NCBI RefSeq assembly: GCF_027497215.1
Contig: NZ_CP114904.1
Span: 806,001-870,000, forward strand
Direction of reading: 5' to 3'
DNA: 64,000 nt
Origin: Micromonospora sp. WMMD812
Lineage (GTDB): Bacteria > Actinomycetota > Actinomycetes > Mycobacteriales > Micromonosporaceae
Made by a program: the position numbers and the translations under genes. Below, one piece after another: positions 19,164 to 35,257 of the stretch (its first letter is position 1; every line of letters begins with the position of its first letter). The notes beneath the pieces are model-generated. The model did no database searches. It was not told where the DNA came from and worked only from the letters and a program-made list of their open reading frames with translations.

Positions 19164-19377
19164 CGCGAGTTCTCCTTACCGCATGTCGACACTGTTCGAG
19201 GTCGCTGCTCGTGCAGTCCTACCCCGTGCGCGTCCGGCTAGCCGCGTGGCGGGAAAGTGTGGCCGGCGAGGTACTGGCGCTCCGCCGTGGGCGGACGACG
19301 CGTCGCGGCAGAGGTGAGACTCGGACGACACGCCGACGCGACATCTGGGTCGCTACGAGGAGCGGCGCTCCATATCT

Positions 19378-19525
19378 GGTGTCCGACGCAGCTGGTTCGG
19401 CCGTTCCTCAGGGGGCGGCCGAGGCAAAGGGGAACCCGGTGGAAATCCGGGACTGCCCGCAGCGGTGAGTGGGAACGACCGCCGTCATCAGCATTGGGCC
19501 GCAGGCGTGCGGGCTGTCCGACCCG
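19378..19525 (+). ncRNA. Cobalamin (adenosylcobalamin) riboswitch, apparently orphaned
   Basis: The conserved B12 aptamer core reads in order: GGTGTCC (19378), AAAGGGGAACCCGGTGG, AAATCCGGGACTGCCCGC and the B12-box-like AGCGGTGAG at 19461-19469, followed by GGGAACGACCGCCGTCA. This matches the class that in Streptomyces controls nrdABS (class Ia ribonucleotide reductase). The 3' P1 side is poorly preserved: instead of a complement to the 5' TGTCCGAC (19380-19387) there is a direct copy of it at 19515-19522. No intact gene follows within 150 bp. Confidence 0.75.
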
Positions 19526-19617
19526 CCCGCCGAGGCGGTCGACTGCTACCGGCTGATGTCGAGCCGGCGCACCAGGTCGGGGTGACCGGGACGGCCGCCT
19601 TCGACGACGACTTCTGA
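19507..19617 (+). pseudogene. Short open tail downstream of the riboswitch (possible gene relic)
   Basis: A 36-codon open frame from GTG at 19507 to TGA at 19615 ends GVTGTAAFDDDF, an acidic tail of the kind found at the C-terminus of class I ribonucleotide reductase small subunits. It starts inside the riboswitch's 3' side and is followed 7 bp later by a strong terminator. The simplest reading is that a deletion removed most of a riboswitch-controlled operon and left its last codons. Identity as nrdB is a guess. It could instead be a leader peptide or no gene at all. Confidence 0.3.
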
Positions 19618-19679: not shown

Positions 19680-20237
19680 TCAGGCGGTCGGGCGGTCCGC
19701 CTCGAAGCGGGCACGCGTCAGGAAGGCGAGCTGGGCCCGCTTGTCCGGCATGTCGATCTCGGGCCCGAACGTGAAGCCCTCCGTCTCGAGCCGGCGCAGC
19801 GCGAGGTGGTTGCGCACGTCCGGCTCGACGACGATCCGTCGCGCGGCCGGGTCGAGGAACAGGAAGCGGGCGAGCGCGGGGCCGACGGCGGTGGTGAGGC
19901 CGCGTGCGTACCGCTGTCCGGGATGGAGCAACAGGTGCATCCCGATGTCGCCCGGCTGGACCGGGTAGCGCTCACCGACCGGGTCGGCCTCGGGCTGGTA
20001 CGTCTGGAACAACCCGACCGGTTCCCCGTCGAGCAGGATCAGGTAGGCGTGGTGCGTCGGCAGACCGTCGATGAACGTGTAGATCTCGCGTACGTCGTCG
20101 AGGGTGTGCGATCCCATGCCCCAGAACGAGTTCCGCGGCTGGGTGACCCAGCCGTGCAGCAGCGGGGCGTGCCGGTCGGGCTCCACCGGCGCGAGCGACA
20201 GTTCGCCGAGGTCGGGAATCTTCTCCTGGTAGCGCAT
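19680..20237 (-). CDS. AlcB-like GNAT acyltransferase of siderophore biosynthesis
   Basis: 185 residues of the siderophore acyltransferase branch of GNAT (AlcB/IucB/MbtK-like). The family motifs are WVTQPRNSFWGM, the AYLILLDGEPVGLFQTY strand, DIGMHLLLHPG and the acetyl-CoA region RYARGLTTAVGPAL, ending with VVEPDVRNHLALRRLE. Such enzymes acylate amine or hydroxylamine groups in siderophores. No N-hydroxylase is present here, so acylation of an amine or hydroxyl is more likely (inference). It is divergent from the first SIP gene across an iron box and has an ATG start. Confidence 0.82.
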   Translation of the reverse strand: MRYQEKIPDLGELSLAPVEPDRHAPLLHGWVTQPRNSFWGMGSHTLDDVREIYTFIDGLPTHHAYLILLDGEPVGLFQTYQPEADPVGERYPVQPGDIGMHLLLHPGQRYARGLTTAVGPALARFLFLDPAARRIVVEPDVRNHLALRRLETEGFTFGPEIDMPDKRAQLAFLTRARFEADRPTA

Positions 20238-20344
20238 ATGGCCTGGTCCTCTGCTTTTCGGTGCGGCGCCGATCGCGATCGGTCGTCGGGCGCTCGACGG
20301 GCACGTGGACCGCGCGGCAGCCGTCGATTCCCTCGTGATCGAAT

Positions 20345-20363
20345 TTAGGTTAACCTAACCTAA
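20345..20363. promoter_or_regulatory. Iron box (IdeR/DmdR1-type), divergent promoter
   Basis: TTAGGTTAACCTAACCTAA matches the 19-bp DtxR/IdeR consensus TTAGGTTAGGCTAACCTAA in 17 of 19 positions. It lies 27 bp before the SIP-MFS-MFS operon and 107 bp before the divergent acyltransferase. It should repress both under iron sufficiency. Confidence 0.85.
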
Positions 20364-20390
20364 GGAAGGCAGACCTTACCTGGAGGATGC

Positions 20391-21101
20391 GTGAAGCGGA
20401 ACTGGGAAGCCCTCGTCCTCAAGGCCATGGGTGGCCGGGACTTTCGGCTGACCGTGCTGGCCGTCGAGTCGGTCGACGGGCACTACCAACGCCTGCTCGT
20501 CGAGGACGGCGGGCTGCTCGAGGCGTGTGGCGTGCACCCCACGATGTGGATCCGACTGTGGTTCGACGACGGCGGCCGCCCGCACCAGCGCGCGTACACC
20601 CTCGTCGATCCGGACCCGGCGACCGGCCGGTTCAGTCTGGAGTTCGCCCTGCACGACGGCTGCGCCGCCCGCTGGGCCAGCGCAGCGCGGGTGGGGGACA
20701 CCATCGACGCCACCGTGCAGGGCAGCGGGTTCCAGCTGCCCGACCCCGCGCCGGAGCACCTCTACCTGGTCGGTGACGCGGCGTCCCTGCCCGCGGTGAA
20801 CAGCCTCCTCGACGCCGGCGCCGACATCCCGGCGACGGTGTGGCTCGAGTACGCCCACGAGGGCGAGAAGGCGCTCGCCCCGCGGGCACGCGCGCACCAC
20901 GACGTCACCTGGGTGCCGCGTCGCGACGACGGGCGGCACCTGGTCGAGACGGTCTGCGCGGCGCTGTCCGCCAGCGGCGACGCCCACTACTGGGTGGCCT
21001 GCGAGGCGGCCAGCACCCGTGCCATCACCCGGCACGTCCGGCGCACCCTGGGCGTCGGCCGGCAGCAGCTGACCTCGCTCGGCTACTGGAGCGCCAGGTG
21101 A
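20391..21101 (+). CDS. Siderophore-interacting protein (SIP, FAD-dependent ferric-siderophore reductase)
   Basis: 236 residues of the ViuB/SIP family. It begins directly at the FAD-binding barrel, with the flavin motif RAYTLVDPD (canonical RxYTxR, here with D after the proline-free turn), and has the NAD(P)H-binding core YLVGDAASLPAVNSLL and a C-terminal YWSAR. It would reduce ferric siderophore in the cytosol to release iron. GTG at 20391 follows GGAGG. It overlaps the next gene by 4 bp and is directly preceded by the iron box. Confidence 0.88.
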   Translation: MKRNWEALVLKAMGGRDFRLTVLAVESVDGHYQRLLVEDGGLLEACGVHPTMWIRLWFDDGGRPHQRAYTLVDPDPATGRFSLEFALHDGCAARWASAARVGDTIDATVQGSGFQLPDPAPEHLYLVGDAASLPAVNSLLDAGADIPATVWLEYAHEGEKALAPRARAHHDVTWVPRRDDGRHLVETVCAALSASGDAHYWVACEAASTRAITRHVRRTLGVGRQQLTSLGYWSAR

Positions 21102-22363
21102 GCGGTCGGCTCGGCACCCTCACCGCGCTGTACGTCACCCAGTACCTCGGCATCGGTTTCATCACCGTCGGGTTGACCGCCATCCTGCGCGACGGCGGCA
21201 CCTCGCTGGACACCCTCGCGCTGTTGCAGGTCGTCGGCCTGATCTGGCCGATCAAGTTCCTGTGGGCGCCGATCCTCGACCGGTACGGCTCCCGCCACCG
21301 CGGCCACTACCGGTCCTGGCTGCTGGTGCTCCAGGGGGGCATGGTCCTGGCGCTGCTGGCCCTGCTGCCGTTCTCGCGCCCCGCGGCCGAACTCGGCCCC
21401 GTCATCGCGGTCTGCGCCGCGTACGTGCTCCTCTCGGCGACCCAGGACATCGCCGTCGACGCGGTGGCCGTCCGGATGCTCGCCGAGACCGCCCGCGGGA
21501 CGGGCAACGGCATCCAGGTGGCCGCGAGCTACCTCGGCAACCTGCTCGGCGGCGGCGCGTGCGTGCTGGTCTACGACCGGTACGGGTGGCTGCCGGCGGT
21601 CGGCCTGCTGGCCGCGTTGACGGCGGTCGGCCTGCTGGTGGTGTGGCGGTTCCGGGAACCGGCGCGCGCCGACCGGGTGGCCCGGGTCGGCGCGGCCTAC
21701 CGGGCGCTGCTCTCGGTGTTCGGTCAGCCCGGCTGCCGGTGGTGGACCTTCGGCGTGGTGCCGCTGGTCTACGTCGGGGCGGGGATGGCATACGCCCTGG
21801 TCACCCCCGCGCTGGTCGACGCCGGCTGGTCGCTGGGCCGGATCGGCGTGGTGACCGGGGTGGTGACGAGCGCGCCGGCGATCCTGGCCGGCCTGGCCGC
21901 CGGGCTCGGGATCGGGCGGTTCGGGCGCAGCGGCATGCTGGTGACCGGCGGTGCGGCCCTGGCGCTGTCGACCGTGGGGCTGCTGCCGCTGATGTACGGC
22001 CGCGCGCCGCTGGGTGGCACGATCGTCGCGCTGTGCTGCTTCCTGGCGGCGTACACCGTCGCGAACGTGGTGCTCTACACCGTCAACATGGACTACTCCC
22101 GACCGGCCGTCGGCGGCACCGACTTCACGGTCCTGTCGTCGTTCGGGCTGATCTGCTCCTTCGTGGCGGCCTCGATCGGCCTGGCCGCCGCGGACCGGCT
22201 CGGCTACCCGGTGGTCGCCGTGTCGTCCATCGTGCTGGTCGCCGCCGGGGTCGCCCTCGGCGTCGCGCACCGGCGGCGGTTCCCCCGCCCGACGCGCCCG
22301 GGCGGGGCGCCGGTGGACGACCTCGCGCGGCCCGCCGTCGGCGGGCTGGCGAACGCGTCGTGA
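21098..22363 (+). CDS. MFS transporter, AmpG/RhtX-FptX-like
   Basis: 421 residues, 12 predicted helices. The N-terminus (LGTLTALYVTQYLGIGFITVGL), the loop PIKFLWAPILDRYGSRHRGHYRSW and SATQDIAVDAVAVR are hallmarks of the AmpG-like branch to which the single-protein siderophore transporters RhtX and FptX belong. GTG at 21098 overlaps the SIP stop, so it is in the iron-box-controlled operon. In a Gram-positive it may import ferric siderophore or a siderophore fragment; direction is not readable. Confidence 0.82.
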   Translation: MSGRLGTLTALYVTQYLGIGFITVGLTAILRDGGTSLDTLALLQVVGLIWPIKFLWAPILDRYGSRHRGHYRSWLLVLQGGMVLALLALLPFSRPAAELGPVIAVCAAYVLLSATQDIAVDAVAVRMLAETARGTGNGIQVAASYLGNLLGGGACVLVYDRYGWLPAVGLLAALTAVGLLVVWRFREPARADRVARVGAAYRALLSVFGQPGCRWWTFGVVPLVYVGAGMAYALVTPALVDAGWSLGRIGVVTGVVTSAPAILAGLAAGLGIGRFGRSGMLVTGGAALALSTVGLLPLMYGRAPLGGTIVALCCFLAAYTVANVVLYTVNMDYSRPAVGGTDFTVLSSFGLICSFVAASIGLAAADRLGYPVVAVSSIVLVAAGVALGVAHRRRFPRPTRPGGAPVDDLARPAVGGLANAS

Positions 22364-23934
22364 GCTCGGCGTCCACGGTCGACCCCGCCCCGGGTGCGAC
22401 CGACGGGACCGCACCCGTCCCGGGCCCGCCGCCCACCCGGTGGCTCATCCTGGCGGTGCTCTGCCTCGCGCAACTCGTCGTGGTGCTGGACAACACCGTC
22501 CTGACCGTCGCGGTACCGGTGCTCACCACCGAACTGGGCGCCAGCACCGCCGACGTGCAGTGGATCATCAACGCGTACGCGCTGGTGCTGTCCGGGTTGC
22601 TGCTCACCGCGGGCAGCGCCGCCGACCGGTACGGGCGTCGCCGCATGCTGCTCGCCGGGCTCGTCCTGTTCGGACTCGGCTCGCTGGTCGCCGGGCTCGC
22701 GCGCACCACCGAGCAGCTGATCGCCGCCCGCGCCGGCATGGGCGTCGGCGGCGCCCTGCTGGCCACGGCCACCCTCGCCGTCGCGATGCAGGTCTTCGAT
22801 CCCACCGAGCGGTCCCGGGCGATCGGCATCTGGGCGGCCACCAGCGCGCTGGGTTTCGCCGCCGGGCCGCCGATCGGCGGCGCCGTCCTCGCCCATCTGC
22901 CCTGGGGCGCCATCTTCCTGATGAACGTCCCGATCGTGGTGATCTGCCTGCTCGCCGGCCGGGCGCTCATACCGGAGTCCCGCGAACCGGCCCGCGGGCA
23001 CCTCGACCTGGTAGGGGTGGCGCTGTCCGTCGCCGGCCTGACCACCGTCGTCTGGTCGATCATCTCCGGGCCGGAGCGGGGCTGGGCGTCGGTCGAGGTC
23101 CTCGGCGCGGCCGCCGCCGGTGCGGGCCTGCTCGGGTTCTTCGTCCTCTGGGAGCGGCGCACGCCGGAGCCCATGCTCGACATGCACTTCTTCCGGGACC
23201 GCCGCTTCGTCGGCGCGGTCTGCGGAGTCGTCCTGATCACCTTCGGCGCCACCGGCGCGCTGTTCCTGCTCACCCAGCACCTGCAGTTCGTGCGCGGTTA
23301 CCCCGCCTGGGAGGCGGGCCTGCGGATGGCGCCGTTCGCGCTGTCCATCGTGCTGCTCAACGTCAGCGGTGTCGCCGCGGCCCTGATCCGCCGCCTCGGG
23401 CTGGCGGCCGCCATCGCGCTCGGCATGACGCTGCTCGCCGTCGGACTCGCCGTGGTCACGCACGACCCGACGGACGGCTACGGGGTGCTGCTGGGCGGTC
23501 TGCTCGTGATGGGCACCGGCTGCGCGTTGGCCAACCCGGCGATCGTCGAGGCGGTGATGAGCGCCATCCCGGCGCGGAAGGCCGGTGCCGGCGCCGGGAT
23601 CGACGGCACGATGACCGAGGTCGGCAGCAGTCTCGGCATCGCCGTGCTGGGCGCCGTGCTGCACGCCCGGTTCACGGCCCTGCTCCCGGCCGCCCTGGCC
23701 GGTGCCGGATCGTTCCCCGCGGCCCTCGCCGCCGCGGGGACGGAGGCGGACCGGGAGGCCGTCGCCGGGGCGTTCGCCGCGGCGCTGAAGACCGGCCAGA
23801 CCGTGGGCGCCGGCGCCGTCCTGGTGGGTGGCCTGGTCGCCGCCGGGCTGTTGTACCGGGCGGAGCGGAGGCGGCCCGGTCGGGTGGGCGTCGACGAGCC
23901 GACCCCGGCCGTCGACTCACCGGATATCGGCTGA
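22360..23934 (+). CDS. MFS exporter, DHA2 (EmrB/QacA) family
   Basis: 524 residues, 14 predicted helices. Motif C-like and family features appear: VVLDNTVLTVAVPVL in helix 1, VQWIINAYAL, and DRYGRRRMLLAG in the loop between helices 2 and 3. DHA2 exporters in siderophore loci usually secrete the finished siderophore, the likely role here. GTG at 22360 overlaps the preceding stop by 4 bp, making it the third gene of the SIP-MFS-MFS operon. Confidence 0.87.
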   Translation: MSSASTVDPAPGATDGTAPVPGPPPTRWLILAVLCLAQLVVVLDNTVLTVAVPVLTTELGASTADVQWIINAYALVLSGLLLTAGSAADRYGRRRMLLAGLVLFGLGSLVAGLARTTEQLIAARAGMGVGGALLATATLAVAMQVFDPTERSRAIGIWAATSALGFAAGPPIGGAVLAHLPWGAIFLMNVPIVVICLLAGRALIPESREPARGHLDLVGVALSVAGLTTVVWSIISGPERGWASVEVLGAAAAGAGLLGFFVLWERRTPEPMLDMHFFRDRRFVGAVCGVVLITFGATGALFLLTQHLQFVRGYPAWEAGLRMAPFALSIVLLNVSGVAAALIRRLGLAAAIALGMTLLAVGLAVVTHDPTDGYGVLLGGLLVMGTGCALANPAIVEAVMSAIPARKAGAGAGIDGTMTEVGSSLGIAVLGAVLHARFTALLPAALAGAGSFPAALAAAGTEADREAVAGAFAAALKTGQTVGAGAVLVGGLVAAGLLYRAERRRPGRVGVDEPTPAVDSPDIG

Positions 23935-23958
23935 CCAGCCGTGGCGGGAGGTGCCGCC

Positions 23959-23996
23959 TTGACAAATGACCATCAGCTTAGGTTAGCCTAACCTCA
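23959..23996 (+). promoter_or_regulatory. Promoter with iron box before the ferric-siderophore ABC operon
   Basis: The -35 hexamer TTGACA at 23959-23964 is followed by the iron box TTAGGTTAGCCTAACCTCA at 23978-23996, 16 of 19 to consensus, which covers the -10 region and touches the ATG at 23996. Iron-loaded IdeR/DmdR bound here would block RNA polymerase. Confidence 0.85.
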
Positions 23997-24829
23997 TGTC
24001 AGAGGGACGGAAGCTGGCCGGGGGCGAGCAGAGCCTGTGGGGGATCGACCTGCGTCTGGGCTATCACGGGGTGCCGGTCGTGCACGGCGCGGCGATCGCC
24101 CTCCGCGCCGGCGCCGTGACGGCCCTCGTCGGCCCGAACGGCAGCGGCAAGTCCACCCTGCTGCGGGCCTTGGCCCGGCTGCACCCGATCGCCGGTGGCG
24201 CGGTGCAGCTCGCCGGCGACACCGCCGCGGCCGACCTGCCGGCCCGGGAGTTCGCCCGCCGAGTAACCCTGCTCGCCCAGAGCCGGCCGGTGCCCAGCGG
24301 GGTCACCGTTCGCGACGTGGTCGGCTACGGCCGCCACCCGTACCGGCGGCGGTGGCGGGCCGACGATCCGGAGGGCCCCGCCGCGGTCAGCCGCGCCATG
24401 GACGTCACCGGCGTCGCCGCGATGGCCGACCGGCCGGTCGACGAGTTGTCCGGCGGCGAGCTGCAGCGGGTCTGGTTGGCCACCTGTCTCGCCCAGGACA
24501 CGCCGGTGCTGTTGCTCGACGAACCCACCACCTTCCTCGACCTGCGCTACCAGGTGGAGATCCTCGACCTGGTGCGCGAGCTGGCCGACGACCACGAGGT
24601 CGCGGTCGGCGTGGTGCTGCACGACCTCAACCAGGCCGCCGCGGTGGCCGACGAGGTGGTCCTGCTGCACGGCGGCCGGGTCCGCGCCACCGGCGCCCCG
24701 CGCGAGGTCTTCACCGAGCAGGCGCTGACCGAGACGTACGGCATCCGCATCGAGGTGACCGCCGACCCGCTCACCGGGTTGGTGACCACCCGACCCGTGG
24801 GCCGGCACCTCACCCGCATCCCGGTCTGA
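23996..24829 (+). CDS. Iron-siderophore ABC transporter ATP-binding protein (FecE/FepC-like)
   Basis: 277 residues. Walker A GPNGSGKST (about residues 43-51), signature LSGGELQR, Walker B VLLLDEPTTFLD and H-loop VLHDLNQAAAVAD are complete, in the FecE/FepC arrangement. It energises uptake of ferric siderophore through the fused permease two genes on. The ATG at 23996 overlaps the iron box, so the transcript has little or no leader. Confidence 0.92.
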   Translation: MSEGRKLAGGEQSLWGIDLRLGYHGVPVVHGAAIALRAGAVTALVGPNGSGKSTLLRALARLHPIAGGAVQLAGDTAAADLPAREFARRVTLLAQSRPVPSGVTVRDVVGYGRHPYRRRWRADDPEGPAAVSRAMDVTGVAAMADRPVDELSGGELQRVWLATCLAQDTPVLLLDEPTTFLDLRYQVEILDLVRELADDHEVAVGVVLHDLNQAAAVADEVVLLHGGRVRATGAPREVFTEQALTETYGIRIEVTADPLTGLVTTRPVGRHLTRIPV

Positions 24830-24861
24830 GCCGGGCAACTCATCTCACGAGAAAGACACCA

Positions 24862-25845
24862 ATGTCCCGTACCCGCTTCACCGCCATCGTCGCCGCCACG
24901 GCTGCCGCACTGCTGCTCAGCGCCTGCGGCACCACCGAGAACACCGCCGCCCCGGAGGCCTCCGCCTCGTTGGCCGGGCCGGTCACCGTCACCGACAGCC
25001 GCGGCAAGGCGATCAGCCTCAAGTCCCCGGCGACCAAGGTGGTCGGTCTGGAGTGGGGTGAGGTCGAGATGCTGGTCAGCCTCGGCGTCATGCCCGTCGG
25101 CGTCGCCGACCCCAAGGGCTACGGCACCTGGGTCACCGCCGCCAAGCTCGACCCGGGCGTCAAGGACGTCGGCACCCGTGGCGAGCCGAGCGTCGACTCT
25201 GTCGTCGCGCTCCAGCCCGACCTCGTGGTGATGGAGGACGACGGCACCGCCACCCTGGTCAACCAGCTCGAGAAGTACGTCCCCGTGCTGGTCACCAAGG
25301 GCAGCGACGCGAAGGACAACCTCGGTCGGATGCGCAACGACCTCAACATGATCGCCAAGGCGACCGGCAAGACCGCCGAGGCCGAGAAGCTGCTCGCGGA
25401 CTTCGACGTCGCCCTCGCCGACGGCAAGAAGAAGATCGCCGACGCGGGCGCCGCCGGCCGCCCGTTCGCCATCGCCGACGGCTGGAAGGAGGGCAGCACC
25501 GTCAGCATCCGGATGTTCGGCCAGGGCGCCCTCGTCTCCCAGCTCGGCATCCAGCTCGGCCTGACCAACGCGTGGACCGGCAAGACGGACGAGGCGTGGG
25601 GGCTGGGCCAGACGGACGTCGAGGGGCTGACCGTCCTCAAGGACCCGAACCTGCACTTCTTCTACAACGCCTCGGACGACACCGACGTGTTCGCCGACGG
25701 CCTCGCCGGCAACGCCATCTGGAAGTCGCTGCCCTTCGTCCAGCAGGGCCACCTGCACCGGATGCCCAACGGCATCTGGACCTTCGGCGGCCCGCTCTCC
25801 GGCAAGCAGTACATCGACCAGCTCGTGAAGACCTACACGGTGTGA
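24862..25845 (+). CDS. Iron-siderophore substrate-binding lipoprotein (FecB-like)
   Basis: 327 residues. Signal peptide and lipobox LLLSACG place Cys at about 23, so it is lipid-anchored on the outer face of the membrane. The two-lobe class III binding-protein fold is seen with VVGLEWGEVEMLVSLGV, SVDSVVALQPDLVVM and a long linking helix (KTAEAEKLLADFDVAL). ATG at 24862 gives MSRTRFTAIVAATAAA; the longer open frame upstream is a shadow of the ATPase gene. It is coupled to the permease by a GTGA overlap. Confidence 0.92.
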   Translation: MSRTRFTAIVAATAAALLLSACGTTENTAAPEASASLAGPVTVTDSRGKAISLKSPATKVVGLEWGEVEMLVSLGVMPVGVADPKGYGTWVTAAKLDPGVKDVGTRGEPSVDSVVALQPDLVVMEDDGTATLVNQLEKYVPVLVTKGSDAKDNLGRMRNDLNMIAKATGKTAEAEKLLADFDVALADGKKKIADAGAAGRPFAIADGWKEGSTVSIRMFGQGALVSQLGIQLGLTNAWTGKTDEAWGLGQTDVEGLTVLKDPNLHFFYNASDDTDVFADGLAGNAIWKSLPFVQQGHLHRMPNGIWTFGGPLSGKQYIDQLVKTYTV

Positions 25846-27950
25846 CCGCGCTGACCGCACCCCCGCGCCCGGAGCCGGCTCTCGAGCCGGCTCCGGCCGG
25901 GCGCCTCGCCACCCCGCGCCTCGTCGGGGTCTTCGTCGCCGCGACCCTGCTCCTGCTCGTCGTCGCGGCGGTGCACCTCACCCAGGGCACCTCCTCGATC
26001 GGCGCCCTCGACCTGCTGCGCCTGGCCACCGGCGGCGACGACGAGGCCGCCCGGGTCCTGATCGCCTCCCGGCTGCCCCGACTGCTCGCCGGCCTCGCCA
26101 TCGGCGTCGCGCTCGGCTTCGCCGGCGCCGCCTTCCAGTCGATCGCCCGCAATCCGCTCGCATCGCCGGACACCATCGCCGTCAACGCGGGCGCCCACCT
26201 GGCCATCGTCGCCGTCGCCGCGTTCGGCGTCTCCCTGCCCGCCCTACCGGCCGGCGGCCTCGCGTTCGGCGGCGGCATCGCCGCGGCGGGGCTGGTGCTG
26301 GCGATGTCCGCCGGGGGGCAGGCCGGCACCACCCGGCTCATCCTCGCCGGCTCGGCGATCGCACTCGCGCTCGGCTCGGTCACCACCCTGCTCCTGCTGC
26401 TCTTCGAGCAGGCCACCATCGGCCTCTTCGCCTGGGGCAACGGCTCGCTCGTCCAGAGCGACATGGTCGCGGTCCGCGAGCTCGCCCCGGTGATCGGCCT
26501 CGCCGTGCTGGCGCTGATGCTGCTCGGGCACCGGCTCGACATCCTCGCCCTCGGCGACGACACGGCCACCGTGCTCGGCCTCGACGTACGGCAGACCCGG
26601 CTCATCGTGACGTTGCTGGCCGTGCTGCTCTCCGCCGCTGCGGTCACCCTGACCGGTCCGGTCGCCTTCGTCGGCCTCTGTGCGCCGGTGATCGTCCGGC
26701 TGCTCGGCCGCGTGGTGCCCGGCGTGCACCGGCACCGGATCCTGCTGCCGCTCTCCGGCATCGCCGGGGTGCTCATCGTGCTCGGCTCCGACATCCTGCT
26801 GCGTGCCGTGATGGGCGGGCAGGCCGGCGTGGACGTCCCCACCGGCGTGGTCACCACCCTCTTCGGCGCGGTCGTCCTGGTCTGGCTGGCCCGCCGGCAC
26901 CGCGACGCCGGCCCGACCCGCCGACCGCCGGGCGGGCACGCCGCCGTCCGCTCACGGACCTTCGTCGGGGTGGTCGTCGCCGTGACCGCCACCGCCACCG
27001 TCGCCGCGATCGTCGTCGGGATGCTCGCCGGGGACACCTGGGTGCTGCTCGGCGACATCGTCAACTGGCTCAACGGGACCACCGGGCCGGCGTACACCTT
27101 CGTGCTGGACCAGCGGTGGCCCCGGGTCGCCGCGGCGGTGCTGGCCGGCGCCGCGATCGCCGTCGCCGGCACCACCGTGCAGGCGGTCTGCCGCAACCCG
27201 CTCGCCGAGCCGGGCGTCCTCGGCATCACCGCCGGCGCCGGGCTGGGCGCGGTCGCGCTGCTCACCTTCGTTCCGCTGGCCGGGGTGTGGGCCATCTCCG
27301 GCGTCGCCGGGCTCGGCGCCATGGTCGCCTTCGCCCTGGTCTACGCGGTGGCGTGGCGCGGGGGTCTCAGCTCCGACCGGCTCGTCCTGATCGGTTTCGG
27401 GGTCTGGCAGGGCGGCCTGGCCGTGATCACCTTCCTGATCGTCTCGTACGACCCGTGGAACACCGGCAAGGCGCTGACCTGGCTCTCCGGCTCTACCTAC
27501 GGCCGCACGTCGCTGCAGGTCCTGCCGGTCGCGATCGCGCTGCTGCTCTTCACCCCGGCGGTGGTCGCCGCCCGGCGCGAGCTCGACCTGATGGCCCTCG
27601 ACGACGACACGCCCCGGGTGCTCGGCGTCCGGCTGGAGCGCACCCGGCTGGTCGCCCTCGGCGCGGCGGCGCTGCTCACCGCCACCGCCGTCTCCGCCGT
27701 CGGCGTGATCGGCTTCGTCGGCCTGGTCGCGCCGCACATGGCCCGGGCGCTCGTCGGTGCCCGGCACGCCCGAGTGCTCCCGGTCGCGGCGCTGCTCGGC
27801 GCCGCGCTGGTCAGCGTCGCGGACACCCTGGGCCGCACCGTCATCGCTCCCGCGCAGATCCCCGCCGGCCTGGTCACCGCCATGATCGGCACCCCGTACT
27901 TCGTCTGGCTGCTGTGGCGCTCCCGCGCCGTGGCGGCCACCGCCCGCTGA
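25842..27950 (+). CDS. Fused FecCD-type siderophore permease (FhuB-like tandem)
   Basis: 702 residues made of two complete FecCD permease units joined head to tail, about 30-360 and 370-700, each of 10 predicted helices. Each half has the diagnostic segments: [18 protein letters not shown] and [18 protein letters not shown], and the ATPase-contact glycines in [15 protein letters not shown] and [15 protein letters not shown]. The fused form is like FhuB and makes the transporter a monomeric permease. GTG at 25842 overlaps the lipoprotein stop. Confidence 0.92.
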
Positions 27951-27978
27951 CCGAACCGGCCTGACCGAGAGAGGCACC

Positions 27979-28878
27979 ATGACCGAGACCCTGCCCGTCG
28001 CGCCCTGGCGTCTGTTCACCGTCGAGGTCCGGGCGGTACGCCGGCTCAGCCCGTCGTTCGTACGGGTCACCTTCACCGGGGCCGACCTCGACCGGTTCGC
28101 CGACAACGGCTACGACCAGCGGATCAAACTCGCGCTGCCGCTCCCCGGCGAGCACACCGTGCGGATGCCCGACGGCCCCGACTGGTACACGGCCTGGCGG
28201 GCCCTGCCGGACGAGCGCCGCTACCCGATCCGCACCTACACCGTCCGCGCCGTACGCCCGCACCTGGCCGAGGTCGACATCGACCTGGTCCTGCACGGCG
28301 ACAGCGGCCCGGCGACCCGGTGGGCGCGGCGGGCCCGCGCCGGCGACGAGATCGTGCTCGTCGGCCCGGACGCCGGCTACCGGGGCGACCACGGCGGTGT
28401 CGAGTTCCGGCCGCCGGCGACCGCGCAGCTGTTGCTGGTCGGCGACGAGACCGCGGTGCCGGCGATCGCCGCCATCCTGGAACGCCTGCCCCGGGACGCG
28501 CGCGGCCGGGTGCTGCTCGAGGTGCCCGGGGCCGACGACGTGCTGCCGCTGGTGGCGCCGCCCGGCGTCACCGTGACCTGGCTGGCCCGGGACGCGGGGG
28601 AGCACGGGAGCCGGCTCGTCGAGGCGGTCGCGGCGGCGGCGGGGGAGCTGCTGGTCGCCCCGGCTCCGCCCGTCGCCCAGCCGGTCCCCGACGTGGACGT
28701 GGACGACCTCTGGGAGGTGCCCGAGGAGGTGCCGGCGACGCCGTTGTACGCGTGGCTGGCCGGGGAGGCGGGGGTCATCCGTACCCTGCGCCGGCACCTG
28801 GTGGGGGAGCGGGGCCTCGACCGGCGGGCGGTGGCGTTCATGGGCTACTGGCGGATCGGCCGCGCCGACCCCTCCTGA
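27979..28878 (+). CDS. Second siderophore-interacting protein (SIP, FAD-dependent reductase)
   Basis: 299 residues, a full-length ViuB/SIP homolog. FAD-binding motif RTYTVR near residue 83, followed by [22 protein letters not shown], pyridine-nucleotide core [18 protein letters not shown] and the C-terminal family ending [24 protein letters not shown]. Ribosome site GAGAGG, ATG at 27979, 28 bp after the permease in the same operon. It is distinct from the shorter SIP at 20.4 kb, so this locus encodes two ferric-siderophore reductases. Confidence 0.9.
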
Positions 28879-28925
28879 CGGTGTCGCTTCCGGACGGCGA
28901 GCCGCCGCGTCCGTGGCGATGGCGG

Positions 28926-28944
28926 TAAGGGTAGGCTCGCCTAA
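28926..28944. promoter_or_regulatory. Weaker iron box before the siderophore biosynthesis operon
   Basis: TAAGGGTAGGCTCGCCTAA matches the IdeR/DmdR consensus at 15 of 19 positions and is 29 bp before the ATG of the ATP-grasp gene. It puts the biosynthesis operon under the same iron control as the uptake genes, perhaps with weaker repression. Confidence 0.65.
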
Positions 28945-28973
28945 TTGGACGGTCGGGCCGGTGCGGAGGTGGG

Positions 28974-30149
28974 ATGCGGCTGTACATCACCGCGCTCAAC
29001 CCCACCGACGCCGTCCTGGACGGTCTCGTGCCGGCGGCGGCCACGCTGGGTCTGCCGGTCACCGTGCTGACCGACCGGCCCGCTGAGTGGCCGGCGGACG
29101 TGCCGACCACCGCCTGCGCGGTCCGCGACCCGGACGCCGTACTCGCGGCCGTCGCCCCGGGACGGCCCGCGGCGCTGCTGTCCAACAGCGACCATCTCCA
29201 GGCGGCCACCGCGCTCGCCGCGCGGCGGCTCGGCCTGCCCGCCAAGGACCCCGACGCGGCGCGCCGCTGCAAGGACAAGGCGGCCACCCGTCGCGCCGTG
29301 GCGGCGGCCGGGCTCGACCTGGTCCGCACCGCCACCGTCGAGCCCGGTGCCGACCCGGTCGTGCCCGCCGCGACGTTCCCGGCGGTGGTCAAGCCCCGCG
29401 ACGGGGTGGCGAGCGAGGACGCGTATCTGGTCGCCGACGACGAGGAGTTGGCCGCGCGGGTCGCCGAGATCCGCCGGCGGCGGCCGGACGTGGCGCTGGT
29501 GGTCGAGGAGTACCTCGCCGGCGACCTGCGGACGCACGAGACGCTGGGCGACGGCTCCGCCCTGGCCGTCCTGGGTGGCTGGCGCACCGGCCTCGGCCCG
29601 CCACCGACCTTCACCGAGGTCAGCCTCGACTGGTCGCCGCCCACGGCCCCCGAGACCGCGCAGGTGCGGGCCCACCTCGACGCCCTGGCCGTCGGGTTCG
29701 GCGCCTGCCACACCGAGTACGTCGTCCAGGACGGCCGGGTCCGCCTGATCGAGGTCAACTACCGCCTCATCGGGGACCGGATGGACCTGATCCTCGCCGA
29801 GCTGCTCGGTGTGCCGCTGTTCGAGTACCTGATCCGGCTGCACCTGGGCGAGCCGCTGGCCGCCCTCGACCTGCCCGCTCCCGACACCGTCGACCGGCAC
29901 GCCCGGGTCGAGTACGTCTGCGCGGACCGGTCCGGTCGCCTCACCGCCGCCCCCGGCCCGGTGGACACCGCCCGCGACGACGTCCGCCTCGGCTGCCGAC
30001 CGCTGCGCGAGCCCGGCCGCACCGCCGACCTGACCGGCACCAACCGTGACTACCTGGCCGTGCTGCACGCCATCGGGCCGGACGACCGGACCGTCCGCCG
30101 GGCCCTGAACACCTTCCGCGCCGACCTGCGCTGGGAGATCGCCGGATGA
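28974..30149 (+). CDS. ATP-grasp ligase of siderophore biosynthesis (PvsA-like)
   Basis: 391 residues. The ATP-grasp fold shows KDKAATRRAVAAAGL, the nucleotide-binding VVKPRDGVASEDAYLV, hinge VVEEYLAGDLRTHE and Mg-binding LIEVNYRLIGDRMDL. ATP-grasp enzymes join a carboxylate to an amine; in vibrioferrin synthesis PvsA attaches an amino acid in this way. First gene of a four-gene overlapping operon (GGAGGT ribosome site, ATG at 28974). The match to PvsA rests on operon composition and fold, not on alignment. Confidence 0.83.
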   Translation: MRLYITALNPTDAVLDGLVPAAATLGLPVTVLTDRPAEWPADVPTTACAVRDPDAVLAAVAPGRPAALLSNSDHLQAATALAARRLGLPAKDPDAARRCKDKAATRRAVAAAGLDLVRTATVEPGADPVVPAATFPAVVKPRDGVASEDAYLVADDEELAARVAEIRRRRPDVALVVEEYLAGDLRTHETLGDGSALAVLGGWRTGLGPPPTFTEVSLDWSPPTAPETAQVRAHLDALAVGFGACHTEYVVQDGRVRLIEVNYRLIGDRMDLILAELLGVPLFEYLIRLHLGEPLAALDLPAPDTVDRHARVEYVCADRSGRLTAAPGPVDTARDDVRLGCRPLREPGRTADLTGTNRDYLAVLHAIGPDDRTVRRALNTFRADLRWEIAG

Positions 30150-31771
30150 CCGACGACAGCGAACGGCAGGTGTTCACCCGGGTCCTCGACGCCCTGCTCC
30201 GCGAGGACCACCTCGGCCTGACCAGCCGCGGCCGGGCCGACGGCCCCGACTGGTGGCAGGCGCCGCACCCCGCCGGCCTACTGCGGATACCGGTACGCCC
30301 CGACGGCTTCCAGCACAGTGTCCGGACCGCCGCGCCCGTGCTGCACGTCGTCCCGCCGGACGGCCGGGCCCACCGGGTCGACACCCTCGACGCGCTGCTG
30401 GCCCTGCTGGCCCCGCACGACGATCCCGACGCCGAAGCCGGCTGGCACACCTTCACCGCCGAGTGCCATGACGACCTGCGGGCCCGCCGGCTCGCCGACG
30501 GCGCCCGCGCGCGGGTCCACGCCGCCGTGGCCGCCCGCCGTAGGAACGCGCCCAACGGGATGGCCGGCGCCGTCCTGGACGACGTCCTGGCCGCGCACGC
30601 CGGGCACCCGGTCTACCCCACCGACCGCTGCCGGCACGGCCTCGCCGACGACGACCTGCGACGGTACGCCCCGGAGCACGCGCCGAGCTTCCCGCTGCGG
30701 TGGCACCCGACCCCGGTCGAGACGGTCCAGCTCACCGGCGAACTGCCGCCCTGGTGGCCGCGCGCCGAGCGGCCGGGCCAGTTCCTCATGCCGACGCATC
30801 CGCTCACCGCGGCCCGCCGCGGACTGCCGGTCGTGGACGCCCCACCGATCACCGTGCGACCCACCCTGTCCATGCGGACCGTGGCGCTGGACGGCGACCC
30901 GTACACCCATCTGAAGCTGCCGCTGCCGACGGCCGCCCTCGGCGCCCGCAACCGCAGGACCCTCGCGGCCGGGACGCTCGCCGACGGCGCCGCCGTCGCC
31001 GGGCTCCTGCACCGTATCGCCGCCGCGGAACCCGCCTTCGCCGGCCGGATCCACCACGCCGACGAGGGCACCTACGCCGAGACCGGGGACGAGTGGCTGG
31101 CGTTCCTGCTCCGCCGGTTCCCGCACCACCTGGCCGGCGTCCAGGTGGTGCCGGTCGCCGCGCTCGCCGCCGCCGACCCCGTCGCGGGCACCGTCGCCGA
31201 GCGGATCAGCCCCGGCGCCGTCGGGCCACTCCTGGAGGCCTACCTGGACCTGCTGGTCGACTGGCACGTCTGCCTCTGGCTGCGGCACGGCGTGGCGCTG
31301 GAGGCTCACCCGCAGAACATCCACCTGCTGCGGCGCCCGGACGGGTCGGTCGGCCTGCTCTACAAGGACAACGACGGTGCCCGGCTGGACCGGCGCCACC
31401 GCGGCTCCGGCGGGCTCTCGTTGTCCGACGAGCGCATGTGGACGCACGACCCCGGGGAACTGGCCGACGTCTTCGTCACGATCACCGTGCACCTCGCCGC
31501 GGCGGCACCGCTGCTCGCGCTCGCCGCCCGCGGCGTGCCCGTCCCGTCACCGGCCACCGCCCTCGCGCCGCGGCTGGCCGCCGCCCGGGACCGGTGGGGC
31601 GCCGGGCCGGCGGCGCGCATCTTCACCGCCCGGGTGCTCGACGCCCCGCGCCTACCGGTCAAGGCCATGCTCACCGCCGGAACCCTGCTGCCGAAGCAAC
31701 GACTCGGCGCCACCGACGTCAACAAGTACTACCGTCGCACCGGACCCAACTACCTGCGGGGAGCACCATGA
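30146..31771 (+). CDS. NIS synthetase 1 (IucA/IucC family)
   Basis: 541 residues. NRPS-independent siderophore synthetases adenylate citrate or 2-oxoglutarate-type carboxylates and condense them with amines or alcohols. Family motifs: FLMPTHPLTA (a variant of HPWQ), RPTLSMRTVAL, EAHPQNIHLL, YKDNDGARLD and the FhuF-like C-terminal domain ending KAMLTAGTLLPKQRLG. The HPLT variant differs from the HPWQ of its partner, suggesting another substrate class. ATG at 30146 overlaps the ATP-grasp stop. Confidence 0.88.
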   Translation: MTDDSERQVFTRVLDALLREDHLGLTSRGRADGPDWWQAPHPAGLLRIPVRPDGFQHSVRTAAPVLHVVPPDGRAHRVDTLDALLALLAPHDDPDAEAGWHTFTAECHDDLRARRLADGARARVHAAVAARRRNAPNGMAGAVLDDVLAAHAGHPVYPTDRCRHGLADDDLRRYAPEHAPSFPLRWHPTPVETVQLTGELPPWWPRAERPGQFLMPTHPLTAARRGLPVVDAPPITVRPTLSMRTVALDGDPYTHLKLPLPTAALGARNRRTLAAGTLADGAAVAGLLHRIAAAEPAFAGRIHHADEGTYAETGDEWLAFLLRRFPHHLAGVQVVPVAALAAADPVAGTVAERISPGAVGPLLEAYLDLLVDWHVCLWLRHGVALEAHPQNIHLLRRPDGSVGLLYKDNDGARLDRRHRGSGGLSLSDERMWTHDPGELADVFVTITVHLAAAAPLLALAARGVPVPSPATALAPRLAAARDRWGAGPAARIFTARVLDAPRLPVKAMLTAGTLLPKQRLGATDVNKYYRRTGPNYLRGAP

Positions 31772-33363
31772 CGAGAACCGGGTTGTGTCCCCGACCCGGC
31801 CTCGACGCCGACCACCTCGCCGACCTCGCCGCCGCCCACGCCGTCTTCGGCTGCTACCTGCGCGAGGTCGCCGCACCGGACGGCGACGCGGACCTGGTCG
31901 ACGGCGAGGCACGGGTGTGGTCACGGCACCTCGGCACGCAGTTGCGCTGCGCCGTCGACCGGCCCTCGCCGGCCGGCGCACACCGCTACGCCGGTCCGGT
32001 GCAGAGGAACACCGGCGCCGGCTGGGAGGACCTCGACGCCGTGGCGCTGGCGCGGCTCCTCGCGGCGGAGCTCACCGCGCGGACCGGGGTCGGCAACGAC
32101 GAGTTCGTCGGGCAGGTCCGCGCGAGCCGCGACGCGGTGGCCCGCCTGCTGGCCGAGCGGCCGCCACAGGACCCGACGCCGACCGGCGACCCGGCCATCG
32201 ACGCGTACGTCGATTCCGAGCAGTCCCTGCTCTTCGGCCACCCGCACCACCCGGCGCCCAAGTGGCGCACCGGCGATCCGAGCAGCTGGGGCGCCTACGC
32301 CCCCGAGCTGCGCACCACCTTCCAACTGCACTGGCTCGCGGTCCCCGACGACCTGGTGGCCGAGGCGGGGCCGTTCGACGAGCTGATCGCCCCGCTCGAC
32401 CCGCCGCCCGTCCCGGCCGGGCACCACGCCCTGCCCGTGCACCCCTGGCAGCTGGCCCTGGTCCCGCCGACCGACCGCCGCCTGCGGCACCTGGGCCCGG
32501 CCGGCGTGCCGGTGCGGCCGACGGCGAGCGTCCGCACCCTGTACGCCCCCGAGGCGGATCTCTTCGTCAAGACCAGCCTGCACGTACGGATCACGAACTG
32601 CCTGCGCAAGAACGCCCGCTACGAACTGACCGGCGCGCCGGCGCTGACCCGGCTGCTGACCGGCGTGCCGCTGCCGGCACAGGTACGGCTGCTGGCGGAG
32701 CCCGCGTACCGGACCGTCACGACGCCTGGCGCGGACGAGGCGTACGGGACGATCCTGCGCACCGGCCTGCGCCCGCACCTGCGACCGGGGGACACCCCGC
32801 TGTTGGCGGCGGCGCTGGCCGCCGCGCCGCTCGCGGTGCCCGACCCGGTCGGCTGGTGGCGCGCGTACGCCCGGCTGCTCGTGCCGGCGGTGCTGCGCTG
32901 GTGGCTCGGCCACGGCGTCGTGCACGAGCCGCATTTGCAGAACGTGATCGTGGTCCTCGACGGCCACCGCCGGCCGGTCCGCCTCCTGCTCCGCGACCTG
33001 GAGGGCGTGAAGCTCGACACCGACCGCCTCCCCAACTGGCCCGACGGCGTGCCGCGACAGGCCGGCTACCGCCCGGCGGACGCGCGGCACCGCATCCTCT
33101 ACTGCCTGTTCGTCAACCACCTCGCCGGCATCAGCGGGGCACTCGCCGACGCCAGCCCCGGCATCGAGCCCCACCTGTGGCGGGTGCTGCGGGACGTCGT
33201 CGCCACGGTCGCCGCGGACCTCGGCGAACCACCCGAACTCCGCGACCTGCTCGCCGGCGCCCCGCTGGTCGCGAAGGCGAACCTGCTGGTGCGGTGGCAC
33301 CGCGACGCGGACCGGCGGGCGCCGTACGTGCCGGTGCCGAACCCGTTCGGCGGGTCCCGGTGA
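31768..33363 (+). CDS. NIS synthetase 2 (IucA/IucC family)
   Basis: 531 residues from ATG at 31768 (ATGA overlap). Canonical NIS motifs are intact: LPVHPWQLAL, RPTASVRTLYAP, FVKTSLHVRITNCLRKN, VHEPHLQNVIVVL, LLRDLEGVKLD, then the FhuF-like C-terminus ending LVAKANLLVRWHRDAD. With synthetase 1 it fits the PvsB/PvsD pair, which build the two ester/amide bonds of vibrioferrin on citrate. The exact substrate of each is not decidable from sequence reading. Confidence 0.9.
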   Translation: MTRTGLCPRPGLDADHLADLAAAHAVFGCYLREVAAPDGDADLVDGEARVWSRHLGTQLRCAVDRPSPAGAHRYAGPVQRNTGAGWEDLDAVALARLLAAELTARTGVGNDEFVGQVRASRDAVARLLAERPPQDPTPTGDPAIDAYVDSEQSLLFGHPHHPAPKWRTGDPSSWGAYAPELRTTFQLHWLAVPDDLVAEAGPFDELIAPLDPPPVPAGHHALPVHPWQLALVPPTDRRLRHLGPAGVPVRPTASVRTLYAPEADLFVKTSLHVRITNCLRKNARYELTGAPALTRLLTGVPLPAQVRLLAEPAYRTVTTPGADEAYGTILRTGLRPHLRPGDTPLLAAALAAAPLAVPDPVGWWRAYARLLVPAVLRWWLGHGVVHEPHLQNVIVVLDGHRRPVRLLLRDLEGVKLDTDRLPNWPDGVPRQAGYRPADARHRILYCLFVNHLAGISGALADASPGIEPHLWRVLRDVVATVAADLGEPPELRDLLAGAPLVAKANLLVRWHRDADRRAPYVPVPNPFGGSR

Positions 33364-34496
33364 CCCGGCCGGTCTACGTCCACGACCTCGACGCGCTCGC
33401 GGCGCACGTCCGGTCCGTCCGGAGCGCCCTGCCCGAGCGCGTCGAGCTGCTCTACGCGGTCAAGGCGAACCCCGACCCCGGCGTGCTGCGGAGCCTCGCT
33501 CCCGCCGTCGACGGCTTCGAGGCGGCGAGCCGCGGCGAGCTGCGGCGGCTCGCCGAGGTGCTGCCCGACCGGCCGCCCGCCGCGTACGCCGGGCCGGGCA
33601 AGACCGACGAGGACCTGGCCGCCGCGCTCGCCGCCGGGGCGGGCCGCGTCCACGTGGAGTCCCCGGCCGAGCTGCGGCGGCTCGGCGCGCTGGCGCGGGC
33701 GGCCGGCACCACCGCCGGTGTGCTGCTGAGGGTGAACCTGCCGGTCGCGGCCCCCGGGGCGAGCCTCGTCATGGGCGGCGGGCCGAGCCCGTTCGGGATG
33801 GATCCCGCCGACGTGCGCGAGTGCGCGCGCCGGCCACCGGCCGGCGTCGACATCCGGGGCGTGCACGCCCACCTGGCCAGCGGCCTGGACGCCCCGCTCG
33901 CCGGCCAGGTCGCCACCGCCGTGGTCGAGTGGGCGGTCGCCGAGGTGGGCGCGGCGGAGGTCGACGTCGGCGGCGGCATGGCCGTGGACTACACCGACCC
34001 GACCGCCCGCTTCGACTGGGCCGGCTACGGCCGGGACCTGACCCGGATCCTCGACCGCCATCCGGGCCTGCGCCTGCGGATCGAGCCGGGTCGTGCGCTG
34101 ACCGCCTACTGCGGCACCTATCTGACCGAGGTGATCGACGTCAAACGCTCGTACGGCGAGTGGTTCGTGGTGGTGGCCGGTGGCACCCACCACCTGCGTA
34201 CGCCGGCGGCGAAGGGCCACTCGCAGCCGTTCACCGTGCACCGGCGTCCGGCCGACGGGCAGCCGCGCACAGACGGCGGACGGGTCACCGTGGTCGGGCA
34301 GCTCTGCACACCCAAGGACGTGCTGGCCCGGTCGGTCGACAGCGGGCCGGTGGGGGTGGGCGACGTCCTGATCTTCGCCATGGCCGGCGCGTACGCCTGG
34401 AACATCAGCCACCGGGACTTCCTGCTGCACGAGCCGCCGGAATTCCGGACCGGCGATCCGCGCGACGTGGCCGCCGGCTGGGCCACCCGACCGTAG
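33360..34496 (+). CDS. Fold-type III PLP-dependent decarboxylase (PvsE/LysA-like)
   Basis: 378 residues of the ornithine/diaminopimelate decarboxylase group. PLP lysine in LLYAVKANP (about residue 39), phosphate-binding VDVGGGMAVDY, RIEPGRAL and the active-site cysteine region VVGQLCTPKDVLA. In vibrioferrin and staphyloferrin B pathways such an enzyme removes CO2 from a citryl-amino-acid intermediate to give an ethanolamine or diamine unit. GTG at 33360 overlaps the synthetase stop. It is the last gene of the biosynthesis operon and converges with dps. Confidence 0.88.
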   Translation: MTRPVYVHDLDALAAHVRSVRSALPERVELLYAVKANPDPGVLRSLAPAVDGFEAASRGELRRLAEVLPDRPPAAYAGPGKTDEDLAAALAAGAGRVHVESPAELRRLGALARAAGTTAGVLLRVNLPVAAPGASLVMGGGPSPFGMDPADVRECARRPPAGVDIRGVHAHLASGLDAPLAGQVATAVVEWAVAEVGAAEVDVGGGMAVDYTDPTARFDWAGYGRDLTRILDRHPGLRLRIEPGRALTAYCGTYLTEVIDVKRSYGEWFVVVAGGTHHLRTPAAKGHSQPFTVHRRPADGQPRTDGGRVTVVGQLCTPKDVLARSVDSGPVGVGDVLIFAMAGAYAWNISHRDFLLHEPPEFRTGDPRDVAAGWATRP

Positions 34497-34517: not shown

Positions 34518-35093
34518 TCAGGCGCGGACGACCGGGGTGTCGACGAGGTGCTCGGCGATGAACCAGGCCTGCAGTTCGTTGGTGCGGATCACGTTGGACA
34601 CCAGCAGGTCGTTGCTGCCGTCGTCGCCGCCCTCCTGCACCCGGGCGGCGGCGTCGTGCGCGTCGATGAGGATCGTTTCGTGGGCCTCGAGCAGACGGGA
34701 GAGCATCCCGGGCACCTCCTCGGCCCCGTCCGGCGGGCGGGGCACCCGGGTCAGCTCGGCGACGTGCCGTGGATCGCCGACCGCCACGCCGCCGAGCGTC
34801 TGCACCCGTTCGGCGATCAGGTCGACCAGCTCCAGTTGCTCGCCGGCGTGCTTGTCGAGCAGGAGATGCAGCTGGTAGAAGGTCGGGCCCCGCATGAGCC
34901 AGTGGTACTTCTTGTACAGGTCGTGCAGGATGCGGGTGTCGGCGAGGACTAGGTTCAGCCGTTCGCACGAGTAGAGCCGCGCCTCGTACGCGAGGCCGAC
35001 CGGCAGCTGCCGGACGCTGCCGAACGCCTGGATCTCCCGGCCGTGCTGATGCAGCAGGGGCTGGCTGTCCGCACTCGTCGGCTGTCCGGTCAC
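34518..35093 (-). CDS. dps: Dps-family ferritin-like protein
   Basis: 191 residues with the Dps four-helix core. The inter-subunit ferroxidase residues are visible in ILHDLYKKYHWLMRGPTFYQLHLLLDKH and LELVDLIAERVQTLGG is the family signature. It stores iron, scavenges peroxide and may bind DNA through its basic tails. GTG at 35093 is chosen because GGGAGG lies just upstream. Its place beside the siderophore locus suggests a role in iron storage. The gene end lies 21 bp from the converging decarboxylase gene. Confidence 0.88.
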   Translation of the reverse strand: MTGQPTSADSQPLLHQHGREIQAFGSVRQLPVGLAYEARLYSCERLNLVLADTRILHDLYKKYHWLMRGPTFYQLHLLLDKHAGEQLELVDLIAERVQTLGGVAVGDPRHVAELTRVPRPPDGAEEVPGMLSRLLEAHETILIDAHDAAARVQEGGDDGSNDLLVSNVIRTNELQAWFIAEHLVDTPVVRA

Positions 35094-35257
35094 GTCGCCT
35101 CCCTCGATGACTGCCGACCGTCCGCCGAGGTGGCGAACCGGCAGTGGTGAGCCCGGCACGAGCCTAGGCGTCCGGAGGTCGCCACCCGGACCGAATCGAC
35201 AGTTTTGTCGGTGGGCTGGCCTACGGTGTCCCCACACTCGGACGCAGGGGGAGACGC

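Follow-up and report, generated by a model that had tools for sequence, protein, structure and literature searches.

Vibrioferrin-type siderophore biosynthesis is best known in marine Gram-negative bacteria. The vibrioferrin operon pvsABCDE belongs to Vibrio parahaemolyticus, and a metagenomic copy has likewise been cloned, with expression in Escherichia coli (PMC5577590). In passages of a second paper, the vibrioferrin biosynthesis genes of V. parahaemolyticus are listed as pvsABDE (PMC5812596), so PvsC is counted as transport and not as a defining enzyme. A literature search of titles and abstract openings, with partial coverage, and passages of two further papers (PMC12093950, PMC11219617) gave no report of an actinobacterial vibrioferrin. 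In passages of a genus survey, genes for siderophores made independently of nonribosomal peptide synthetases (NRPS) are mainly accessory, and its main text there does not name vibrioferrin (PMC12915310).

Here we analyzed a 64,000-nucleotide stretch of the Micromonospora sp. WMMD812 genome (contig NZ_CP114904.1, positions 806,001 to 870,000), which we call the window. Judging from homology, we find it highly likely that the four-gene operon at 28974-34496 is an actinobacterial pvsABDE that would respond to iron limitation by making vibrioferrin or a close analogue, that its flank is of the type found at desferrioxamine (des) loci, and that the acyltransferase in this flank is probably outside the pathway. 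As in vibrioferrin pvsABCDE, four enzyme classes stand in the same order, the two NRPS-independent siderophore (NIS) synthetases belong to the PvsB and PvsD clades, the serine site is of the AcsD type, and iron regulation is predicted from a conserved box. Unlike pvsABCDE, the Micromonospora operon has no PvsC, a Gram-positive host, a shorter PvsB and PvsD, and a des-type transport flank. We regard it as a further vibrioferrin-type system, in an unusual composite setting.

Three other systems can be set beside it. The Rhodococcus sp. WAY2 pRWAY01 operon (L057) is likewise an actinobacterial pvsA-B-D-E set, with 46-55% identity per enzyme, but there a major facilitator superfamily (MFS) gene separates B from D, and the binding protein linked to the operon belongs to another class. 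The Sodalis pSG1 siderophore locus (L059) has AcsD- and AcsE-type enzymes in common with the operon; it differs in having three NIS enzymes, a diaminobutyrate transaminase and no ATP-grasp match. The Sodalis record does not name the product, which we take to be achromobactin. Desferrioxamine loci differ in their hydroxamate enzymes (desA, desB, desC) and in a NIS synthetase of another clade.

The enzyme operon and its match to vibrioferrin-type genes

We compared the operon with four reference operons from plasmid records (Vibrio fortis, Cupriavidus necator H16, Pantoea soli and the actinobacterium Rhodococcus sp. WAY2), which are vibrioferrin-type by gene order and annotation. All four have the order ATP-grasp, NIS, MFS, NIS and type III pyridoxal phosphate (PLP) enzyme, and the ATP-grasp gene of Pantoea soli is annotated PvsA. 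In the open reading frames of the window, the Micromonospora operon has four genes, and each of the three junctions is a 4-nucleotide overlap:

28974..30149, + strand: pvsA-type ATP-grasp ligase; 54.5, 41.5, 37 and 33% identical to the gene at the PvsA position in Rhodococcus WAY2, C. necator H16, Pantoea soli and V. fortis
30146..31771, + strand: pvsB-type NIS synthetase, predicted to form a 2-ketoglutarate amide; IucA_IucC and FhuF (Pfam, 77.8 bits, cut-off 25)
31768..33363, + strand: pvsD-type NIS synthetase, predicted to form the ester of citrate and L-serine; IucA_IucC and FhuF (Pfam, 146.7 bits, cut-off 25)
33360..34496, + strand: pvsE-type fold-III PLP decarboxylase (Pfam); 41-54% identical to genes at the PvsE position and 42% to the one at the AcsE position

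Each operon enzyme pairs best with the reference enzyme at the same position, and B matched against D, or D against B, scores far lower; identities to the four reference operons range over 33-55% for A, 30-46% for B, 29-49% for D and 41-54% for E. The ATP-grasp protein gives a weak Pfam match (20.7-21 bits) and is placed firmly through its PvsA homology. Its best relatives of solved structure are L-amino acid ligases (E value 3e-8), the motif SNSDHLQ is common to it and the four PvsA-position reference genes, and [IV]E[IV]NYR is found in every aligned row. NCBI names for its homologues are generic or wrong (siderophore biosynthesis protein, ATP-grasp domain-containing protein, carboxylate-amine ligase, biotin carboxylase-like, argininosuccinate lyase). 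The pvsB-type protein has KDND and a C-terminal D[VI]NK-PN[FY]L in common with the PvsB-position genes and not with Sodalis NIS3. The pvsD-type protein matches the AcsD structure at an E value of 2e-59, and the structure nearest to the decarboxylase is PDB 6knh (3.5e-73), presumably SbnH. The PvsB- and PvsD-type proteins are 541 and 531 amino acids long, and those in the three proteobacterial rows are 570-605 and 585-621. Across the whole genome (7.13 Mb, a single contig), PF04183 matches three proteins, two at the operon and one at the des genes.

We placed the synthetases in a maximum likelihood tree of 40 chosen NIS proteins. The first falls in the PvsB clade (support 99/100), whose sister is Sodalis NIS3 with a Thalassospira partner, and the second falls in the PvsD/AcsD clade (96/93), whose sister is RhbC on a long branch. 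Within this clade, PvsD and AcsD do not come apart, in keeping with a common reaction. The genome's own DesD forms a separate clade with RhbF and Sodalis NIS2, and neither operon synthetase is found in it; grouping with DesD was the outcome that the sequence-only reading of this DNA had named beforehand as contrary to its proposal. That reading had an ATP-grasp ligase, two IucA/IucC proteins and a fold-III PLP decarboxylase in one overlapping operon, and Pfam, PvsA homology and the overlaps place all four at 28974-34496. Its further claim, that this is a PvsA/B/D/E-type set in the same order with PvsC alone missing, is borne out by the best-match pairing, the tree and the kept residues described below, and alignment with the genes at the PvsA/B/D/E positions gives one-to-one counterparts. 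There is no PvsC-type MFS gene between B and D, because 30146-31771 and 31768-33363 overlap; other MFS genes are found upstream.

The tree and the gene set also bear on whether the pathway is of the achromobactin or staphyloferrin B type. The PvsD- and PvsE-type enzymes are about equally close to Sodalis AcsD and AcsE and to proteobacterial PvsD and PvsE, as such a pathway would have it. However, the locus has only two NIS enzymes where three would be expected, it has an ATP-grasp enzyme, and no diaminobutyrate transaminase was identified among its genes; in the tree, the first synthetase is placed in the PvsB clade, to which Sodalis NIS3 is only the sister. For staphyloferrin B, SbnC scores 32.8 bits (cut-off 700) and SbnF 27.3 bits (cut-off 900). 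We consider either pathway highly improbable. A different citrate siderophore, made with another amino acid for the ATP-grasp enzyme or another acid for PvsB, would be a vibrioferrin analogue, a sub-case of the explanation that we prefer, and is a serious possibility. Identity to the three proteobacterial proteins is 33-42% for PvsA and 30-35% for PvsB, and columns invariant in the three proteobacterial rows are kept at 88/127 (PvsA) and 106/178 (PvsB), as would be expected for an analogue; the enzyme set, its order and the signature motifs, in contrast, are as in vibrioferrin-type operons.

Related loci, found by the PvsD-type gene, keep the A-B-D order in all 38 cases, with E behind in 36 while two run off the contig (pvsE lies beyond the end of L040 and L041 and is incomplete in L032 and L039). 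These loci span Micromonospora, Verrucosispora, Plantactinospora, Labedaea and Actinomadura. A plasmid collection has both synthetase types in Rhodococcus (2), Embleya (2), Streptomyces and Nonomuraea, and all four enzymes were confirmed in the two plasmid regions that we opened (Rhodococcus WAY2 and Streptomyces chartreusis). Vibrioferrin-type biosynthesis is thus extended to a large soil genus, with pvsA in 40/101 Micromonospora genomes, and also reaches further actinomycete genera.

Active-site residues and a proposed pathway

According to passages of a study of AcsD, this enzyme esterifies citrate with L-serine, E442 serves as base and as reader of the amino group, recognition of the serine carboxylate is proposed for R501 and K563, and mutants of R305 and H444 had been reported earlier (PMC3323832). 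In our alignment, with positions counted along, AcsD R305, E442, H444, R501 and K563 correspond to R280, E387, H389, R442 and K503 of the pvsD-type protein. All five are invariant in ten PvsD rows and kept in two AcsD rows. In the decarboxylase, which keeps the cysteine motif GQLCTPKD, K35 and C316 are invariant in the PvsE rows, and K35, named by motif, is presumably the lysine that binds PLP.

By homology, PvsD would adenylate citrate and esterify it with L-serine, as AcsD does, and PvsE would then decarboxylate citryl-serine to citryl-ethanolamine. PvsA, as an amino-acid ligase, would put L-alanine or another amino acid on the free amine, and PvsB would form an amide between this new amine and 2-ketoglutarate, followed by cyclization. 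We would expect the product to be a citrate-ethanolamine-amino acid-2-ketoglutarate siderophore, that is, vibrioferrin or a close analogue. With alanine as the amino acid, a hand calculation (one of each building block, less 3 H2O) predicts C16H22N2O12, at m/z 435.1246 for [M+H]+ and 488.0360 for the protonated Fe(III) complex. This pathway argues for reassigned Pvs steps, in which the citrate ester is made by PvsD and not by PvsA.

Flanking transport genes and desferrioxamine loci

Upstream of the operon, the window carries an acyltransferase gene and a series of transport and reductase genes, with ATP-binding cassette (ABC) importer components and two siderophore-interacting proteins (SIP1 and SIP2):

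19680..20237, - strand: DesC/RhbD/AlcB-like GNAT acyltransferase, probably accessory (PF13523, Acetyltransf_8, E value 1e-50)
20391..21101, + strand: SIP1, siderophore-interacting flavoprotein, predicted ferric reductase (PF04954, PF08021)
21098..22363, + strand: MFS1, RhtX/FptX-like siderophore transporter (TIGR02718, 139 bits, cut-off 356)
22360..23934, + strand: MFS2, DHA2-type MFS exporter (Pfam MFS), candidate exporter, common to des loci
23996..24829, + strand: siderophore ABC importer ATPase (PF00005, 92 bits)
24862..25845, + strand: FhuD-like siderophore-binding protein (PF01497, Peripla_BP_2)
25842..27950, + strand: fused double FecCD permease (PF01032, two stretches, 496 bits)
27979..28878, + strand: SIP2, siderophore-interacting flavoprotein (PF08021, PF04954)

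MFS1 shares 29% identity with a gene in the siderophore locus on S. meliloti pSymA, and the nearest NCBIfam model to the binding protein is FhuD (PRK10576, 137.6 bits, under the cut-off of 252).

In a Micromonospora locus without pvs genes (L064), the GNAT gene stands divergent to SIP1-MFS1, followed by desA and desB (by Pfam), desC, desD and MFS2. L065, also without pvs, has the same layout, as does L066 with the permease-SIP2 block adjoining; in both, the desAB stretch lay outside the Pfam scan. The GNAT, SIP1, MFS1 and MFS2 genes of the L064 flank are all present beside our operon and desABCD is not. The genome's own desABCD genes are away from the operon at C1:352-365 kb (L062), with their own binding protein, ABC and SIP genes, and DesD at C1:363338-365206; this stretch resembles the operon locus only in an identical iron box and in diverged GNAT, ABC and SIP paralogues. 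In L015 and L033, the order is desC-desD-MFS2-pvsABDE. From these gene orders and the position of the genome's own desABCD, the flank of the operon is of the des type. The GNAT gene, SIP1-MFS1-MFS2 and the ABC-SIP2 block would thus form the flank of a desferrioxamine locus, former or shared, and the operon would sit within this flank. With desABCD elsewhere, export and uptake of the product would probably be shared or encoded in trans, with export perhaps via MFS2.

To follow these genes across the genus, we located pvsA, desD, the acyltransferase, MFS2 and the binding protein in 101 Micromonospora genomes (E value cut-offs 1e-60 for pvsA, 1e-80 for GNAT, 1e-100 for DesD, 1e-70 for the binding protein and 1e-180 for MFS2). 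We took weaker GNAT rows as paralogues, and the tail of the GNAT list is outside the count. Distances were measured from start positions, split assemblies may hide linkage, and fragments below a cut-off were scored absent (as in G015). The acyltransferase is present in 56 genomes, MFS2 in 46 and the binding protein in 48, and desD is found in all of these (56/56, 46/46 and 48/48). In the 14 genomes that lack desD, all three are absent at the cut-offs, and 3 of the 14 have pvsA. With kinship ignored, neither the acyltransferase nor MFS2 is associated with pvs (p=0.31 and 0.84). Within 15 kb, the acyltransferase has pvsA only in 19 of its 56 genomes, desD only in 21, both in 4 and neither in 12. 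The binding protein is at most 15 kb from pvsA in only 2/48 genomes and from desD in 10/48.

These counts bear on whether the window holds a single dedicated locus, with import and export reserved for a vibrioferrin-like product that the AlcB-like acyltransferase modifies. The acyltransferase lies at most 15 kb from pvsA in 23/40 pvs genomes and the binding protein co-occurs with pvs, as this explanation would predict. However, 15/40 pvs genomes lack an acyltransferase orthologue (E value at most 1e-80), 31 genomes have one but no pvs, desD accompanies the acyltransferase throughout, the same block flanks des genes in L064, L065 and L066, and the binding protein is outside the pvs-linked class of L057 and L031. 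We find a dedicated locus unlikely. The sequence-only reading had taken import, export and reductases as dedicated to the product, which does not agree with the way that the acyltransferase, MFS2 and binding protein track desD; nor is its suggestion that the acyltransferase alters the product upheld, given the pvs genomes that lack the orthologue and its place beside des without pvs in L064 and L065. The acyltransferase is probably not a step of the operon's pathway. As a caution for the reading of gene clusters, neighbouring transport genes may serve another siderophore.

Several points weigh against our preferred reading of the operon as pvsABDE in a des-type flank. PvsC is missing from the operon, and chemistry was not the basis on which the reference operons were assigned. 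For the NIS tree, the program flagged 15 rows for uneven letter composition and RhbC for its long branch. Passages of reviews give another order, in which free serine is decarboxylated and PvsA is proposed for the citrate ester (PMC5577590, PMC6836290), and in 2017 the functions of the individual Pvs enzymes were still called untested (PMC5577590), so that the step order given above is a proposal. Related genomes are not independent and our tests ignore kinship, which also applies to the genome-wide association of the binding protein with pvs (29/40 versus 19/61, p=0.0001); the importer may have a role in uptake of the pvs product. In 19/40 pvs genomes, the acyltransferase is beside pvs with no des nearby. 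Finally, in a pvs genome without desD (L051, G015), pvsA is preceded by SIP1 and fragments of the acyltransferase and MFS2, which would fit a des-type flank in decay; in this genome the flank may have outlasted des.

Tentatively, whole biosynthetic cassettes may have been exchanged inside one iron-regulated transport locus, pvs having moved behind desABCD-MFS2 and in some lineages outstayed desABCD. Possible intermediates are L015 and L033, four genomes with des-MFS2-pvs by coordinates (G013, G017, G080 and G105), and L071, which has GNAT-SIP1-MFS1-MFS2 without des and without pvs. If this exchange took place, a weak, light-labile carboxylate siderophore would be exported, imported or reduced by hydroxamate-built machinery.

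The pvs-linked binding proteins of L057 (Rhodococcus WAY2) and L031 (Micromonospora HM5-17) share 59% identity, and the binding protein of the window is 24-25% identical to them. As a cognate importer in trans, this class has one relative in the genome (C1:2422740, 43%); since relatives of the class are found in 72/101 genomes (E value at most 1e-20), it stays no more than a candidate. In five genomes (G009, G022, G049, G054 and G113), a binding protein 44-45% identical to the class lies within about 2 kb of a des-type acyltransferase, so the class is not specific to pvs.

Iron boxes and neighbours of related loci

We searched for iron boxes with a typed consensus, TTAGGTTAGGCTAACCTAA, and counted mismatches. 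The window has three:

20345..20363, strand not assigned: strong iron box, divergent promoter of GNAT and SIP1, 1 mismatch
23978..23996, strand not assigned: strong iron box, ABC importer operon, 1 mismatch
28926..28944, + strand: degenerate iron box, pvsA promoter, 4 mismatches

No box at 1 mismatch arose in 100 shuffles, and the 7.13-Mb genome has 7 places within 3 mismatches of the consensus. The letters of the box at 20345 recur at C1:357796, in the stretch with the genome's own des genes. In 19/41 loci examined, a box within 4 mismatches lies at –44 to –53 from pvsA, and random stretches of the same loci match as well in 0-3/40 draws; from this conserved position, we accept the third box as real but weak. 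Of the three iron boxes claimed from the letters alone, two are thus strong, and the third is degenerate yet conserved in place. In loci such as L007 and L020, pvsA is close behind MFS1 and has no box, which is consistent with read-through. It is very unlikely that the operon is decayed or silent: the promoter box is conserved, the frames are open and overlapping, and the catalytic residues are invariant. Further iron boxes lie within a few kb of iron-siderophore binding protein genes elsewhere in this genome (C1:81856-86573 and C1:2422740-2426972).

No single transporter is always beside the pvs core in a Pfam scan of 35 chosen neighbours at eleven other loci, with crude gene calls. At L069, the nearest scanned transporter-like gene is of the EamA type, downstream past another gene. 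Partial scans found the pvs core beside an upstream NRPS and chorismate-binding enzyme (L013, 105-6903), a chorismate-binding enzyme (L016, 5634-6980) or a lysine/ornithine monooxygenase (L024, 3836-5185), as if pvs settles near other siderophore loci.

At the edges of the locus, a ferritin-like gene (34518-35267, - strand, PF00210) converges on the operon and has no match in the 38 related loci. At the other end is a cobalamin riboswitch (19376-19544, + strand, Rfam RF00174, 45.2 bits), with no long + strand gene directly after it and only short frames behind it, before and opposite the acyltransferase gene; it is possibly the orphan of a lost B12-regulated gene.

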